Origin: Parcubacteria group bacterium CG1_02_44_31
Lineage (GTDB): Bacteria; Patescibacteriota; Minisyncoccia; UBA6257; Brennerbacteraceae
DNA: 37,408 bases
Reading direction: 5' to 3'
Assembly: GCA_001872485.1 (NCBI GenBank)
Contig: MNWK01000003.1
Span: forward strand, 1-37,408
The notes under the pieces were generated by a model. That model did not search any database. It saw only the letters and a program-made list of their open reading frames with translations, and had not been told where the DNA came from. Shown here one piece after another: positions 10,120-34,338 of this stretch; positions within the stretch are counted from its first letter, which is position 1, and every line of letters starts with the position of its first letter. Both the position numbers and the translations under genes were made by a program.

Positions 10120-10387
10120 AGAAAATAATCAAATGATAGTATGACATGTATTGTACCGCACCTTTTCTTACAATAAAATAAACACAATACAATAAAAATG
10201 GATATTACATTATGTAACGATCGTTATTTAATGTGATGTTTTCCAAGAGGTATGTGTCTATCAGTATGTTGGGTGAGCACAAGAACCGAGTTGCATAATG
10301 CAAGATACATGTTGCGCTCCTTGAAGCCATAATTTCATGGAGTTTTTTAATCATATTCATTGCAAATGGGCGGTATTATGCATGCGC

Positions 10388-10415
10388 TTGACAAAACCAA
10401 AACATGTCTTATAAT
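10388..10415 (+). promoter_or_regulatory. Consensus sigma-70 promoter
   Basis: TTGACA (10388-10393), a 16-bp spacer, then TATAAT (10410-10415). Both hexamers are perfect. The expected start is near 10422, nine bases before a 28-codon ORF. This is one of the best promoters in the window. Confidence 0.75.
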
Positions 10416-10430
10416 GAACATACTAAAGTT

Positions 10431-10517
10431 ATGAACAGCTTTCAGGACAATTGTAAGTCTTACCGTCATTTTGTTTGGATTCTTTCACAGAAAGCTGATT
10501 TTTCTCGTTACACATAA
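10431..10517 (+). CDS. Possible 28-aa leader peptide
   Basis: ATG to TAA, peptide MNSFQDNCKSYRHFVWILSQ plus eight more residues (KADFSRYT). It starts within about 10 nt of the predicted transcription start, so it would be nearly leaderless. Its last codons form the 5' arm of the predicted antiterminator (10488-10502). This position is what makes it look like a regulatory leader; there is no homology evidence. The stretch could equally be the 5' part of a small RNA. Confidence 0.4.
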   Translation: MNSFQDNCKSYRHFVWILSQKADFSRYT

Positions 10518-10577
10518 AAACACATACGCAATTCTTTTATATAGAAAATCGGCTTTCTGACAAAAGAGCCGATTTTT
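10488..10577 (+). promoter_or_regulatory. Candidate attenuator: antiterminator versus terminator
   Basis: 10545-10577 is a clean intrinsic terminator: AAAATCGGCT / AGCCGATTTT, 10 bp, followed by a T-rich run. Its 5' arm can instead pair with 10488-10502 (CAGAAAGCTGATTTT) through 15 bp with one G-U wobble. The two folds exclude each other, and the 5' antiterminator arm is inside the 28-codon ORF. Known attenuators work this way; the signal sensed here is unknown. Confidence 0.55.
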
Positions 10578-10674
10578 GTTTTTTTTGGGTGTAGCTTATT
10601 GTGAATTTATAAAAGTTCATAAAAAGCCCCACCTGAAAATCGGTGGGAGACAAAAAGGAAAGGAGGTGAAAGCC

Positions 10675-10734
10675 ATGTTCGCAGACCGCGACTGGGATCG
10701 TGATTTCGATCACGACTATGACCACTACGAATAG
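10675..10734 (+). CDS. 19-aa Asp/His/Tyr-rich mini-protein
   Basis: ATG to TAG, MFADRDWDRDFDHDYDHYE. A perfect Shine-Dalgarno (AAGGAGGTGA, 10659-10668) sits six bases before the ATG, striking in a window where such sites are rare. 13 of 19 residues are Asp, His, Tyr, Arg or Trp, and the HDYDHYE end could bind metal. A CCCACC/GGTGGG hairpin lies just upstream (about 10628-10646). I do not recognise the peptide. The ribosome-binding site is the main argument that it is translated. Confidence 0.5.
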   Translation: MFADRDWDRDFDHDYDHYE

Positions 10735-10743
10735 GTAGCGGCC

Positions 10744-10771
10744 ATGTTCGGCAACTTTCGGTAAAGTTGCC
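10744..10771 (+). promoter_or_regulatory. Seven-codon ORF embedded in a 9-bp hairpin
   Basis: GGCAACTTT / AAAGTTGCC with loop CGGT (10750-10771). An ATG at 10744 reads MFGNFR-stop through the hairpin. It looks like a regulatory or terminator-like structure between the mini-genes rather than a real protein. Confidence 0.45.
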
Positions 10772-10787
10772 CCCTAACGGGTAAATA

Positions 10788-10827
10788 GTGAGGGGCGAGC
10801 CAATACTCTCGAGCGCCCGCCCCTCAC
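10788..10827 (+). terminator. 10-bp GC-rich hairpin
   Basis: GTGAGGGGCG / CGCCCCTCAC perfect stem with a 20-nt loop. The following sequence CGATTTTACC has only a short T-run, so it may be a structural or processing element instead of a terminator. Confidence 0.45.
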
Positions 10828-10842
10828 TCCGATTTTACCACA

Positions 10843-10865
10843 ATTTTTCACTGGAGGTGAAAAAT
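10843..10865 (+). promoter_or_regulatory. Hairpin enclosing the RBS and start codon of the 68-aa gene
   Basis: Perfect 9-bp stem ATTTTTCAC / GTGAAAAAT with loop TGGAG. The Shine-Dalgarno GGAGGTGA (10853-10860) lies in the loop and 3' arm, and the AT of the ATG is the end of the 3' arm. Folding would limit access to the start site, which suggests translational control. Confidence 0.5.
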
Positions 10866-11070
10866 GGACGATATGTTTCCAGGGGCTCACGGGAAGTTGA
10901 ACATTGAACTCCCGGAAAAATCTCAAAAACCTCAGCCTAAGCAAGGGAAGGATACACGCTCGTATTCCAACCCTCAAGCCGAGAGTGAGCCCGAGGTGGT
11001 GGGTTCTGTTCACCACCCGCCATTTCCCTTTGGTTGGCTGCACCTTGACCAGCCCCATCCCAAACCATAA
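10864..11070 (+). CDS. Small Pro/His-rich hypothetical protein
   Basis: 68 aa, MDDMFPGAHGKLNIELPEKS at the N-terminus and HHPPFPFGWLHLDQPHPKP at the C-terminus. Gene status rests on the strong Shine-Dalgarno GGAGGTGA four bases before ATG and on the neighbouring mini-gene with the same type of site. It has no transmembrane helix or signal and is probably disordered. I do not recognise it. Base composition is more GC-rich than most neighbours, and several strong hairpins flank it, so it may belong to a recently acquired module. Confidence 0.5.
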   Translation: MDDMFPGAHGKLNIELPEKSQKPQPKQGKDTRSYSNPQAESEPEVVGSVHHPPFPFGWLHLDQPHPKP

Positions 11071-11178
11071 ATTGAGTTCAAGAAACTAACGCAACAGCGG
11101 GAAAACAGACGGCACCCTTATCATTCCTCCGTCGGAAGGAGATGATAAAGGAGAAATTGTTCAAATCCGATAACCCAT

Positions 11179-11214
11179 GGCAAGGGTGAGCGCCCGAGGG
11201 AGCTCACCCTTGCC
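11179..11214 (+). terminator. 13-bp hairpin closing the mini-gene region
   Basis: GGCAAGGGTGAGC / GCTCACCCTTGCC perfect stem, loop of about 10 nt, no T-run after it. A weaker hairpin (TATCAT...ATGATA, about 11118-11146) precedes it. 11071-11178 holds no other gene that I can support. Confidence 0.55.
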
Positions 11215-11268: not shown

Positions 11269-12471
11269 ATGCCGCAGAATAAATTTATTGCAGGATATTC
11301 AAAAGAAATCCAATTTTTTAATCCAAAGTTGGTTGAAAAAATCGCCTGGGATATGGTAAATACCTCCACAAAAGTAAAAAAAGGAGACAATGTGCTGATT
11401 CACATGGACCCAGGAGGTAGACAATTAGCATTGGAACTTGCGAAATTGTCAGTAGCAAAGGGCGCGCGCGTGTATTATTTGATTCAGGATAGGGAATTAA
11501 ACGCAGCGATAGTTGAACACGAAAGCAAAAAAGACATTGCCCGGTTTTTTTCATTTGATAATGCAAAGTTTTTTGAAGCAGATGTGTCGTTTATTATCCG
11601 CGCCCCCAAAACTGCATTTGCGCTGGAAAATATTCCGAGCATAGTTGTGAATAAACTGAATAGCGCAGCACAACCAGCGCTTATGGAGTATCGAGTGAAC
11701 CATTCGCGCTGGTGCTTGATTTACTGGCCAACAATAAAAGAGGCGAGAATTGAGAAAATGAGTTACGAAGAGTATGTCAAATTGTTTTTCAATTCCTGCA
11801 ACCAGCCATGGAATACAATCCAAAAAGCGCAAGATACGCTCAAGAGCACGCTTGATAAGGGGCGCGCCCTTGATTTGCTTGCTGACCCGCACAATACAGA
11901 CAAACAAAAGCGTACTGAATTACACATGAGTATTCAAGGCATGACGTTTGCAAACTCCACCATTGATAAAAACTACCCCGGGGCAGAAGTATTTTCCGCG
12001 CCAGTCAAAAATTCTGTAAATGGCAGGGTATTTGCACAAGGCATGTATAGCTATAATGGCAAGCGTATGCGTGATATTTCTCTTGTATTTGAAAACGGGA
12101 AAGTTGTGTCAGCCAGCGCGCGTAAGGGAGAGAATCATCTTGCGGATATTTTAAACACCGACGCCGGATCGCGGTATGTTGGTGAAGTTGCTCTTGGCAC
12201 AAACCCAGGACTCAAACAAAGATTGTTTAACCCGCTGTTAAATGAAAAAGTGGGAGGAAGTTTTCACATTGCGCTTGGCAGGTCGTACCAAAACGAGCGT
12301 TATAAAGGTAAGGTTGTAAAATTATTTAATGGCAACGAGAGTGCGATTCACTGGGATATTACGATTCTGATGCGTAAGCCATATGGCGGCGGCGCAGTGA
12401 TTGTTGATGGTAAGATAATCCAGCGCAATGGCGTATTTGTGCCGAGGAATCTTGGTGTATTAAATGGATAA
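11269..12471 (+). CDS. M29 family aminopeptidase (AmpS/PepS-like)
   Basis: 400 aa. Cytoplasmic metallo-aminopeptidase that removes N-terminal residues from peptides. The family pattern is clear: N-terminal domain VKKGDNVLIHMDPGGRQLA, then the metal-binding C-terminal half with YPGAEVFSAPVKNSVNG (Glu), RYVGEVALGTNPG (Glu), GGSFHIALGRSY (His and Tyr) and SAIHWDI (His and Asp). All expected ligands are present, so it should be active. A TATAAT at 11241-11246 gives a short leader. It is followed after 9 bp by an M20 dipeptidase, suggesting a peptide-recycling operon in an organism that likely scavenges amino acids. Confidence 0.88.
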   Translation: MPQNKFIAGYSKEIQFFNPKLVEKIAWDMVNTSTKVKKGDNVLIHMDPGGRQLALELAKLSVAKGARVYYLIQDRELNAAIVEHESKKDIARFFSFDNAKFFEADVSFIIRAPKTAFALENIPSIVVNKLNSAAQPALMEYRVNHSRWCLIYWPTIKEARIEKMSYEEYVKLFFNSCNQPWNTIQKAQDTLKSTLDKGRALDLLADPHNTDKQKRTELHMSIQGMTFANSTIDKNYPGAEVFSAPVKNSVNGRVFAQGMYSYNGKRMRDISLVFENGKVVSASARKGENHLADILNTDAGSRYVGEVALGTNPGLKQRLFNPLLNEKVGGSFHIALGRSYQNERYKGKVVKLFNGNESAIHWDITILMRKPYGGGAVIVDGKIIQRNGVFVPRNLGVLNG

Positions 12472-12480
12472 TTCACATAT

Positions 12481-13803
12481 ATGGCAATGATTGAACAATA
12501 CAAACAACTTTTGAAAGATTTTGTCGCGTTTCAAAGCGTGTCAACAGACACGCAGTTTCAGCCAGAAATTCAGAAAACCGTTGCATGGCTGCAACGCGTA
12601 TTTGGACAGAACGGTTTTTCTGTACGGATCATTACAGGATATGATAATCCCTTAGTCATCGCATCATTCGTCTATGACCCAGCACTAGAAACTGTTTTGA
12701 TTTATGGGCACTACGATGTGCAACCTGCAAAAGTTGACGAAGGATGGGCAAGCGACCCGTTTACGTTGACCGAGATGAACAGGCGGCTCGTTGGGCGCGG
12801 CGCGATTGATAACAAAGGCCAGGTGTTAGTACATATGGTTAATGTATTCGAACACATAAAAAGTAAAACACTTGGATATAATGTCAAATTTATGATCGAA
12901 GGCAATGAAGAAACTGGTTCACCGTTACTTGAACAGTTTATTGCCAGCAACAGCGCTTTGCTTGCAGCTGATTTTGTATTGATATCGGACGGAGAAATTT
13001 CTGGGGGGAAGCCGAATATCGAAGTCGGATTTCGGGGCGGATTGAATAGCGTTTTGACAGTTAAAACGTCAACAACCGACCTGCATTCAGGACTTTATGG
13101 ACACAGCGTACCGAATGCTATTCATGAATTAAGTAAAGTGTGCGCGGATTTATATGACGCGAACAATCGCATTGTGGTTCCGGGATTTTACGACGATGTT
13201 GACTCGGTTTCTGATGATGTGAAAAAAGCTAATCAAGCGATTCCGTTTTCTCTTGAAGAACATAAACGTATCAGCGGTGCAAAAATATTGCTTACAGAGC
13301 CAGGTATTGATTTTTACACGCAGGTTGGATTATTGCCCGCTATTGAAGTTACAACCATTGTTGGTGGATACATGGGGCAAGGATTCCGAAATGGTATCCC
13401 GGCAACTGCAACGGCAAAAATCAATTTTCGACTGGTTGCGCGCCAGAACCCAACAAAAATTGCTAAAGCATTTGAAAAATATGTGCGCTCGATTCTACCC
13501 GCATACGTTGATTTTACTTTCGAGTTTAAAACCCCGTACAACGCCTCAAAGATTGATACGAAAAATAAATACGTTGAGCGCGCCCAAAAAGTGCTTGAAG
13601 TTGCGTATGGAAGCACGCCGATCTATAAATATGTCGGAGGAGGTCTTCCTATGGTAAATAGTTTTGAAAAAGCTTTAAAAATCCCGAGCGTATTGGTGCC
13701 GCTTGCAAACGAGGATTGCGCTATGCATGCGGCAAATGAAAACTTTGCATTGACAAACGTCGAGCAGGCATTGCGATTTAGCGCATTATTTCTTGGAAAA
13801 TAA
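12481..13803 (+). CDS. M20 family dipeptidase (CNDP/PepV-like)
   Basis: 440 aa. Di-zinc hydrolase of dipeptides and similar substrates. Visible ligand motifs are YGHYDVQPA (His), GRGAIDNKGQV (bridging Asp), MIEGNEETGS (catalytic Glu pair) and CAMHAANENF (His). The lid domain (about 185-300) with HSGLYGHSVPNA is typical. Start may be ATG 12481 or the Met two codons later. The gap to the upstream M29 gene is 9 bp and the gap to tyrS is 28 bp, so the three are probably co-transcribed. Confidence 0.9.
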   Translation: MAMIEQYKQLLKDFVAFQSVSTDTQFQPEIQKTVAWLQRVFGQNGFSVRIITGYDNPLVIASFVYDPALETVLIYGHYDVQPAKVDEGWASDPFTLTEMNRRLVGRGAIDNKGQVLVHMVNVFEHIKSKTLGYNVKFMIEGNEETGSPLLEQFIASNSALLAADFVLISDGEISGGKPNIEVGFRGGLNSVLTVKTSTTDLHSGLYGHSVPNAIHELSKVCADLYDANNRIVVPGFYDDVDSVSDDVKKANQAIPFSLEEHKRISGAKILLTEPGIDFYTQVGLLPAIEVTTIVGGYMGQGFRNGIPATATAKINFRLVARQNPTKIAKAFEKYVRSILPAYVDFTFEFKTPYNASKIDTKNKYVERAQKVLEVAYGSTPIYKYVGGGLPMVNSFEKALKIPSVLVPLANEDCAMHAANENFALTNVEQALRFSALFLGK

Positions 13804-33265: not shown

Positions 33266-34338
33266 AGATCCTGAAATAAGGATCAGTTGTCCTCTTCGCC
33301 AGTAATGGCGAAGTAATAAAGCGGCTTATAACGGTGAAGCGGAAACCGGTCTTCCCCCAAAAAGGGGTTTTAGAGTTTCTGTAATACCGTGGGAAGTCGG
33401 AAGGTTGAGAATTAAAATTCTATGAAATTTACAAAGCGACAAAAAGCAATACTTATTGGAACAATTTTAGGAGATGCTTATTTGCAAAAGACAGGCAAGA
33501 GAAATGCACGATTGTGTTTGGAGCATGAAAATAAACAAAAAGAATATCTTTTGTGGAAAGTAAGCGCTTTTAAAAATTTGTTTCAAGGCAAGCCGGTTTT
33601 TGTAAAACGAGTGCATCCCAAAACAAAAAAAATGTACGAGTATTGGCGTTTTCAGTCAAATTCCACTCCGGAACTTGGCAAGATGCAACGACTCTTTTAC
33701 AAAAATGGCAAAAAAATTATTCCCAGTAATTTTCAAGAATTATTCAAAGAACCTTTGTCTCTGGCAGTTTGGTTTATGGATGATGGGTATTATTATCCTC
33801 GAGATAATAATGCTTATTTGTACCTTGGAAAATTATCTTTGGATGAGACAAAGATTGTTCAGGATACATTGATAAATAATTTAAGGCTTAAGACGAAGAT
33901 ATTAGATAAAAAACAAGAAGGTTTTGTTATTTATTTTTCTCCGTCAGAAACTCAAAAATTAAAAACAATTATTGGTCCTTATATTATTCCTTGTTTAATG
34001 TATAAAATTCCTTCTTGACCCCGTAACGACTGTCTTCTCTTACTGAGAAGCGACCCGATAGTATTTCGGGTAATACGCCGACACCCAGCCCTACTTTTAC
34101 TAATTACGCTACTTGTAAAATCTCAAGTCAAAAACTTCTTAAGCATAAATTTTTGACTAAAACATAATCAGTAAAAGTAGAGCTGGGTGAAGATATAGTC
34201 TAATCGTTTTACTTTGTAAAACACGCGGATTTAAACACTCTTATCGCTAACGCAGATAATTCATCGCTGTTAATCAGCAAAGCGAACGAAAAGAGTTGTA
34301 TCAGCGTAAATCAGCGTGTTCGCGAAGCGAACAGATTG
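33266..34338 (+). mobile_element. Group I intron 2 (23S site about 2449) with LAGLIDADG gene
   Basis: 5' exon ends CCCCGGGGAT; the intron starts AGATCC and ends CAGATTG; the 3' exon is AACAGGCTGG. The U before and G at the end are as expected for group I introns. The core shows GCGGCTTATAACGGTGAAG, CGTAACGACT pairing with the conserved AAGATATAGTC (34190-34200), and a long P8 (CCCAGCCCTACTTTTACT / AGTAAAAGTAGAGCTGGG, 34084-34187). 1,073 bp. After P7 a 120-bp extension contains genome-type repeats. It is homologous to intron 4. Confidence 0.9.
33422..34018 (+). CDS. LAGLIDADG homing endonuclease (intron 2)
   Basis: 198 aa, intact. Two LAGLIDADG helices, ILIGTILGDAYLQ (about residues 10-22) and SLAVWFMDDGYYYP (about 113-126), place it in the LAGLIDADG type 2 group that works as a monomer. 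The acidic residues ending each motif are the metal-binding active site. It would cut intronless 23S genes near site 2449 and spread the intron by repair copying. It sits in a peripheral loop upstream of the P7 5' strand and is more AT-rich than the exons. Confidence 0.9.
   Translation: MKFTKRQKAILIGTILGDAYLQKTGKRNARLCLEHENKQKEYLLWKVSAFKNLFQGKPVFVKRVHPKTKKMYEYWRFQSNSTPELGKMQRLFYKNGKKIIPSNFQELFKEPLSLAVWFMDDGYYYPRDNNAYLYLGKLSLDETKIVQDTLINNLRLKTKILDKKQEGFVIYFSPSETQKLKTIIGPYIIPCLMYKIPS

Follow-up and report, generated by a model that had tools for sequence, protein, structure and literature searches.

The leader and the genes behind it

The window analysed here is a stretch of 37,408 nucleotides of contig MNWK01000003.1 from Parcubacteria group bacterium CG1_02_44_31, whose genome assembly amounts to 527 kb and is 94% complete. 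The leader opens with a sigma-70-type promoter (TTGACA-16-TATAAT; 10,388-10,415, + strand) that matches the consensus at 12 of 12 positions; promoters of this quality were found twice in the window and once elsewhere in the same genome (about 530 kb scanned, partly overlapping). Transcription is predicted, by inference from this promoter, to start at 10,421-10,422. An ATG at 10,431, 15 nt 3′ of the -10 hexamer and about 9 nt into the putative transcript, begins a near-leaderless ORF of 28 codons plus stop without Shine-Dalgarno sequence (MNSFQDNCKSYRHFVWILSQKADFSRYT; 10,431-10,517, +), the translation of which is inferred. Four arms follow on the same strand. Arm 1 (CAGCTTTC; 10,436-10,443) forms eight perfect pairs with part of arm 2 (10,490-10,497). 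Arm 2 (10,488-10,502) lies within the ORF and is the 5′ arm of an antiterminator, arm 3 (10,545-10,559) is common to antiterminator and terminator, and arm 4 (10,567-10,576) belongs to an intrinsic terminator that ends, with its T-run, at 10,587; arms 2, 3 and 4 were assigned by pairing and covariation. The antiterminator (10,488-10,502 with 10,545-10,559) comprises 15 pairs, one of them G-U, and the terminator (10,545-10,554 with 10,567-10,576) ten perfect pairs followed by the T-run. With the added first stem, the layout 1:2, 2:3 and 3:4 is like that of the trp leader. The codons for F14, V15, W16, I17 and L18 (10,470-10,484, +) are candidates for sensing by their position, a role that is inferred. 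A preliminary description of this DNA had proposed a perfect promoter, a 28-codon ORF starting about nine bases into the transcript, a 15-bp antiterminator with its 5′ arm in the ORF and a strong terminator; each of these elements was recovered in its place, the transcript start being predicted only, whereas the 1:2 stem and the membership of a class-wide set of leaders were no part of that description.

Folding of the whole leader gave nearly equal energies for the two conformations, -30.7 kcal/mol for 1:2 plus 3:4 and -31.2 kcal/mol for 2:3. Leader RNA left free from 10,489 onwards folded into the antiterminator, and RNA left free from 10,530 into the terminator. Of 1000 dinucleotide shuffles of 10,424-10,590, 22 held any terminator, and none combined a terminator 5′ arm with an upstream helix scoring at least 10 (pairs minus G-U pairs), for which the observed score was 14. 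A scan for promoter, mini-ORF, antiterminator and terminator over 458 kb, most of the genome, returned five matches with the window leader far ahead, and no comparable second copy was found in it.

Two small ORFs lie past the attenuator. The first (MFADRDWDRDFDHDYDHYE; 10,675-10,734, +) is preceded by a strong Shine-Dalgarno sequence and has a counterpart (MFKRDWDYTSDHRDFDHYDDCRE) in G001, Parcubacteria group bacterium GW2011_GWF1_45_5 (LCLB01000037), the closest genome by leader element. The second codes for 68 amino acids (10,864-11,070, +) and has no Pfam match; its G001 counterpart has Cys-x-x-Cys pairs, which the window ORF lacks, and the G001 protein gave only sub-threshold zinc-ribbon matches. 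The first genes behind the terminator are thus tiny ORFs with strong Shine-Dalgarno sequences, and they are no amino-acid genes. A hairpin with 17-nt arms (11,179-11,214, +) closes the cassette, and a similar hairpin stands at the equivalent place in G001. An M29 peptidase gene begins at 11,269 with a -10-like TATACT just 5′, and an M20 peptidase gene lies farther downstream (12,481-13,803); both probably have their own start. Because the hairpin closes the cassette and TATACT precedes the M29 gene, we infer that the unit regulated by the attenuator is the small-protein cassette, not the peptidases. The cassette contains two long GC-rich hairpins without T-run (10,787-10,828 and the closing one at 11,179-11,214). 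Their loops have GCGCCCGAG-type letters in common, and that of the second hairpin is inverted in G001.

Other features of the window were also recorded. A repeat of about 75 bp (10,292-10,367) has copies in C5 and C7 of the same genome (85-88% identical) and four copies in G008, several of them at contig ends, and is possibly a mobile or REP-like element. Between 28,940 and 34,018 the match to 23S rRNA covers 4387 bases for a model of 2925 positions, leaving about 1.4 kb of insertions; the ORF at 33,422-34,018 reads like what we take to be a LAGLIDADG homing endonuclease. In the ORF at 27,429-28,496, presumably an NlpC/P60-like protein, TTCGERSR peptide units are repeated inside the otherwise NlpC/P60-like sequence, which suggests short repeat insertions.

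Related leaders in the family and beyond

A DNA search of 101 genomes returned G001 as the single strong relative, with 72% identity over 10,430-10,872. Its leader ORF (MISFQNNCKSYRHFVWILIQKADFSHDR) has the same length of 28 codons and differs from the window ORF by synonymous changes at codons 11, 15, 17, 21 and 25 and by non-synonymous changes at codons 2, 6, 19, 26, 27 and 28. Near-consensus promoters (11 of 12 positions) were present at the equivalent place in both G001 and G002. Among five family members searched, the M20 peptidase gene was found in G001, G002 and G004. The region 5′ of this gene in G002 has no sequence match to the window and an identical layout: TTGACA-16-TAAAAT, an ATG 7 nt 3′ of the -10 hexamer, an ORF of 40 codons with arm 2 near its end, and a terminator, the residues FVFNFVAI preceding arm 2 in this syntenic leader. 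In G004 a contig boundary falls within the cassette, and G003 and G005, two of the six genomes of the family, showed neither the M20 gene nor a confident match to the leader model. When 244 genomes of the order were searched with a pattern for the conserved peptide core, the window and G001 were the sole matches; the pattern matched no viral contigs, and G001 alone among genome contigs. Sequence search alone therefore stops at the family.

For more distant relatives, models were built. A sequence-only model (R1) yielded one true new leader, in G155 (E 6.6e-7, 150 genomes), amid many chance matches, and a DNA search in the family of G155 (27 genomes) found another, in G153. On these four leaders (window, G001, G155 and G153) a model with arms 2-3-4 and 2:3 pairs was built (R2), for which 34 matches in 30 genomes were listed among 244 genomes of the order at E≤0.05. 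When 30 R2 loci were examined, L129, L131, L132, L134, L139 and the four seeds had a mini-ORF ending over arm 2, as did the near copy L130; the remaining loci were mostly without one. The next model (R3), built on nine leaders, matched at least 29 of 383 genomes of the class (E≤0.02), at least 24 of 243 genomes of the order (E≤0.005) and at least eight of 327 genomes of the phylum (E≤0.005), four of these outside the class. The R3 counts are lower bounds, since strict filters were applied and no more than the 10-19 best candidates of each genome were scored. Altogether 74 loci (4 + 26 + 29 + 15) were considered; a leader ORF was assigned by eye in 50, and 24 were dropped, one as a near-copy and 23 for want of a credible leader. 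As judged from these matches, the leader elements of the window belong to a class-wide set of putative leaders.

As a yardstick, R3 was run on an 82-kb sample of E. coli K-12 sequence holding thrL, leuL, trpL, hisL, pheL, pheM and ilvL. Up to E 5 the model gave four matches, the best being pheL (L203:1641-1725, 21.8 bits, E 0.05) and the third trpL (16.0 bits, E 0.92); these E-values are weak, and five of the seven known leaders escaped it. Leaders of Patescibacteria reach 28.8-94.6 bits in the same model. The model detects a shared layout and is no universal signature.

Conservation of stems, ORF placement and codon clusters

Both alternative stems were found conserved by comparison. In the alignment of four sequences 2:3 was 91.7% paired and 3:4 100%, with three double-changed pairs in each; with nine sequences, double changes were seen in 9 of 15 pairs of 2:3 and 3 of 10 pairs of 3:4. 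In alignment A10 (51 leaders) 91.2% of 736 cells were paired in 2:3, with double changes in 14 of 15 pairs (168 cells), and 83.6% of 470 cells in 3:4, with double changes in 9 of 10 pairs (52 cells). None of 500 shuffles matched the paired cells, the changed cells or the covariation score for either stem, and in slid structures pairing dropped to 39-58%. In the alignments A8 and A10 the fit was made to the 2:3 stem and not to 3:4, so the covariation of 3:4 is the less biased; the counts are inflated by relatedness among the sequences. The preliminary description had pointed to covariation across relatives as a check on its two competing stems, and both were indeed kept with compensatory changes.

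Comparison likewise showed conservation of the ORF and of its placement with respect to arm 2. A placement rule absent from the model (start codon, -10-like hexamer close 5′, stop just past arm 2) was met by 22 of the 29 class loci, by 13 of the 15 further ones and by 8 of the 26 order loci found with R2; among random positions, 123 of 2800 met it. A stricter rule (ATG, promoter of at least 9 of 12) was met by 20 of 29, 7 of 15 and 3 of 26 loci, respectively, and by 53 of 2360 random positions. In 46 of 49 hand-assigned leaders (a set that omits L160, whose ORF ends 5′ of arm 2) the stop codon followed the first base of arm 2 at a distance of 15-35 nt, so that a ribosome finishing the ORF must sit on arm 2.

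Codons for one residue were clustered ahead of arm 2 in many leaders. Within the 11 codons up to arm 2, one residue accounted for at least four codons in 22 of 49 leaders, as compared with 10 and 7 leaders when the two alternative frames were read and with 11.4% of the 3576 background windows taken from long ORFs; at least five were present in 11 of 49 (2 and 1 in the other frames; background 2.6%). With automatic ORF calling, clusters were found in 13 of 20 leaders of the class set, whereas the other sets gave 2 of 7 and 0 of 3. Examples are FFFFF, FNFFFAFF, MMMAMM, VMMVMM, LLLSLLTLLL, TTVTTTTTTRT, LLLLLL, KKMKK, QNQQQ and WPWW. The residues before arm 2 in the window ORF, SYRHFVWILSQ, contain HFVWIL and no run, the top count of a single residue being 2. 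This ORF has one Cys codon and no Cys run, whereas Cys clusters are present in the relatives L183 and L194. By its codons, the window leader may be an aromatic/hydrophobic sensor (Y, F, V, W, I, L) with no residue favoured, and our confidence in any one of them is low.

Several clusters precede genes for the same amino acid. FFFFF in L155 is followed by prephenate dehydratase (NF008865, above cut-off), SPVPP in L165 by a ProC-like gene (TIGR00112, 1.8e-15, below cut-off), CSCGSS in L168 by a HisJ-type PHP phosphatase and then the N-terminal part of phosphoglycerate dehydrogenase (SerA), MMCCMC in L183 by cysteine synthase (TIGR01136, above cut-off), and QNQQQ in L198 by a LysE-type exporter and then GatC (above cut-off) and part of GatA; in these five loci the amino acid putatively sensed is made, charged or moved by the downstream genes. 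MMMAMM in L166 precedes a protein with a SAM hydroxide adenosyltransferase C-terminal domain. Recognisable first genes thus often appear to fit the codon cluster of their leader, a count over 50 loci without comparison to chance, and this agreement of clusters with downstream enzymes would explain why a ribosome stalls in the leaders. The Met cluster of L161 precedes a small Cys-containing ORF and PurE, with no match of residue to gene. A HAD hydrolase lies behind the leaders of G188 and G189, and many other leaders precede small ORFs without family. Aromatic leaders (YWFSF, YFWF) in L134, L158, L159 and L193 precede, in four genomes, a GCS2-type carboxylate-amine ligase gene pair of unknown product, and so are not counted as matches.

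A DAHP synthase gene at L173 was rejected as target of an aromatic leader, as it has a terminator and its own -10 hexamer in front, and a SAM-hydroxide-adenosyltransferase-type gene after L156 was not counted, not being the first gene.

Leaders with stretches that contain Asn, in L185 (NNSIHN) and L187 (NHTN), stand before two proteins that look alike and resemble distant relatives of GCS2; the protein behind L187 had no Pfam or NCBIfam match. At L156 (G455) two attenuators about 740 nt apart (2249-2338 and 1501-1597, both on the - strand) carry an Ile cluster (VITIIAIIISS) in one case and a Leu/Ile cluster (ILIVLLNLL) in the other, which indicates that cassettes can be stacked. BLASTP among 123 short ORFs found seven similar pairs, only pieces of GCS2-type and LemA-like genes; as the small proteins of different families are unlike one another, no protein family explains the cassette. 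In L132, L139 and L117 (G144, G148 and G155, one family) a region GTTCCG...GGATCAA...CCCACC, about 700-900 nt past the leader and behind the cassette, resembles a structured RNA, without Rfam match.

Proposed mechanism, alternatives and meaning

On this comparative evidence, which is strong for the family of leaders, and without transcript data, we consider it very probable that the window leader is a near-leaderless, ribosome-mediated transcription attenuator. RNA polymerase would start near 10,422, and a ribosome would load onto the mini-ORF almost at the 5′ end of the RNA. Were it to stall before the end of the ORF, with F14-V15-W16 giving the best geometry, arm 2 would stay free and pair with arm 3; that stalling at V15/W16 leaves arm 2 free rests on an assumed size of the ribosome footprint. 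With 2:3 paired no terminator would form, and transcription would continue into the small-protein cassette (10,675-11,214). A ribosome reaching the stop codon would cover arm 2, 3:4 would pair, and the transcript would end near 10,578-10,587. If no ribosome loaded, arm 1 could trap arm 2, and termination would follow too. The 1:2 stem had a p value of 0.055 in the window (dinucleotide shuffles of the 5′ part of the ORF), 0.03 in G001 and 0.005 in G155, and reached p≤0.05 in 11 of 50 leaders, with 2-3 expected; because it is significant in only 11 of 50, the default state without ribosome may differ between leaders. The signal would most likely be a shortage of one or more charged tRNAs. Stalling, the direction of regulation and the amino acid sensed in the window are inferences. 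The proposal of the preliminary description, that a ribosome on the ORF decides which stem forms, gained support from the covarying stems, the ORF kept in G001 and the codon clusters before arm 2.

The same RNA could respond to translation rate and report that translation has slowed in general, or that an antibiotic has stalled the ribosome, instead of the supply of one amino acid, as has been proposed for Erm/Msr-type leaders. The lack of a single-residue run in the window ORF would suit such a leader, as would cassette proteins that are no amino-acid enzymes and a peptide whose conservation between the window and G001 extends outside the arms and in part involves synonymous sites. However, no resistance or efflux gene was recognised downstream in the window, and single-residue clusters occur in 22 of 49 relatives, several of them before a matching enzyme; we regard this explanation as unlikely, though it cannot be neglected. 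Alternatively, the peptide itself might matter, as an arrest peptide or functional small protein, with the stems regulating something else. Its 28 residues are kept between the window and G001 with five synonymous changes, but the middle sequences are wholly different between families and arm 2 is read in differing frames (EKAGF in G155, GRLVF in G188), which indicates that the RNA, not the peptide, is kept at arm 2. This makes a selected peptide quite improbable. A ligand-binding riboswitch or T-box with an accidental ORF would also place a terminator/antiterminator pair 5′ of genes, yet no Rfam family reached gathering score, sub-threshold matches being at chance level, no conserved aptamer was seen, and the position of the ORF is tied to arm 2 in 46 of 49 leaders; we give it very little weight. 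That a chance terminator lies beside a chance ORF, a concern since model matches are dominated by terminators and 24 of 74 loci were not accepted, is contradicted by the comparative data (none of 1000 shuffles, covariation, independent ORF features) and can practically be discounted.

The attenuator that we favour resembles E. coli pheL and trpL in its leader ORF, in an antiterminator and terminator with a common arm, and in ribosome position as the proposed control. In E. coli the ORF is preceded by a longer 5′ leader that has a Shine-Dalgarno sequence; in the window, by contrast, the ORF lies near the RNA 5′ end, arm 2 falls in its last codons, and tiny unknown proteins follow downstream. 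Known amino-acid attenuators usually precede genes for the sensed amino acid, although the mechanism does not require it.

Near-leaderless arrangements are known elsewhere. In Sinorhizobium meliloti trpL the start codon of the leader ORF, ATG, stands at the very 5′ end of the attenuator RNA (PMC7298713), and the window RNA is likewise predicted to start almost at this codon; trpL differs in its Trp codons, its target trpE(G), its alphaproteobacterial host and the absence of a small-protein cassette. Leaderless polycysteine short ORFs of mycobacteria have been described as amino-acid-responsive attenuators (Canestrari 2020, cited in PMC13236596), and as translation attenuation of cysteine genes in the citing paper (PMC13236596), whereas here the output would be an intrinsic terminator and many residues are used. 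The same paper gives LVVI codons and a choice between antiterminator and terminator for the Mycobacterium tuberculosis ilvB1 uORF (PMC13236596), and a uORF attenuator is reported for Corynebacterium ilvBNC; these are alike in uORF and in the antiterminator/terminator choice, but differ in being actinobacterial, with long leaders and branched-chain amino acid biosynthesis genes.

According to a paper of 2010, leader-peptide systems were known only in Proteobacteria and Actinobacteria, plus a new Firmicutes case (PMC2965389). Searches of the open-licence literature (subscription papers and preprints being outside its scope) for leader-peptide or transcription attenuation in Patescibacteria, Parcubacteria, CPR or Saccharibacteria found none, the papers matched being judged mostly by their titles (RiPPs, genomes, isolation, arginine deiminase), and the string "attenuat" was absent from the available portion of a review matching Patescibacteria and riboswitch. 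The remark in the preliminary description that no such attenuation was described for this lineage agrees with this outcome. The attenuator is thus of a classic, known kind, and the lineage (Patescibacteria/CPR) would be new for it, as far as the open-licence literature shows.

Almost nothing is known of regulation in the candidate phyla radiation. In 2024 a review (PMC11665869) described the control of cell state in CPR as unknown, with translation expected to be central. We tentatively suggest, with somewhat less than even confidence, that Patescibacteria share one near-leaderless scaffold (arms 2-3-4) in which sensing codons are swapped between leaders (Phe, Trp, Leu, Ile, Met, Thr, Pro, Cys, Ser, Lys, Gln or mixed aromatic), and that these cells, which depend on a host, sense amino-acid supply directly by way of the ribosome. 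The output would in large part be fast-evolving tiny proteins, often with Cys pairs, which may represent an unrecognised amino-acid-starvation response that includes the window cassette. The codon clusters would label genes of unknown function, and the leader, which is genetically testable, would offer experimenters a native inducible element. An amino-acid sensor in CPR would reveal how biosynthesis-poor cells sense the supply of their host.
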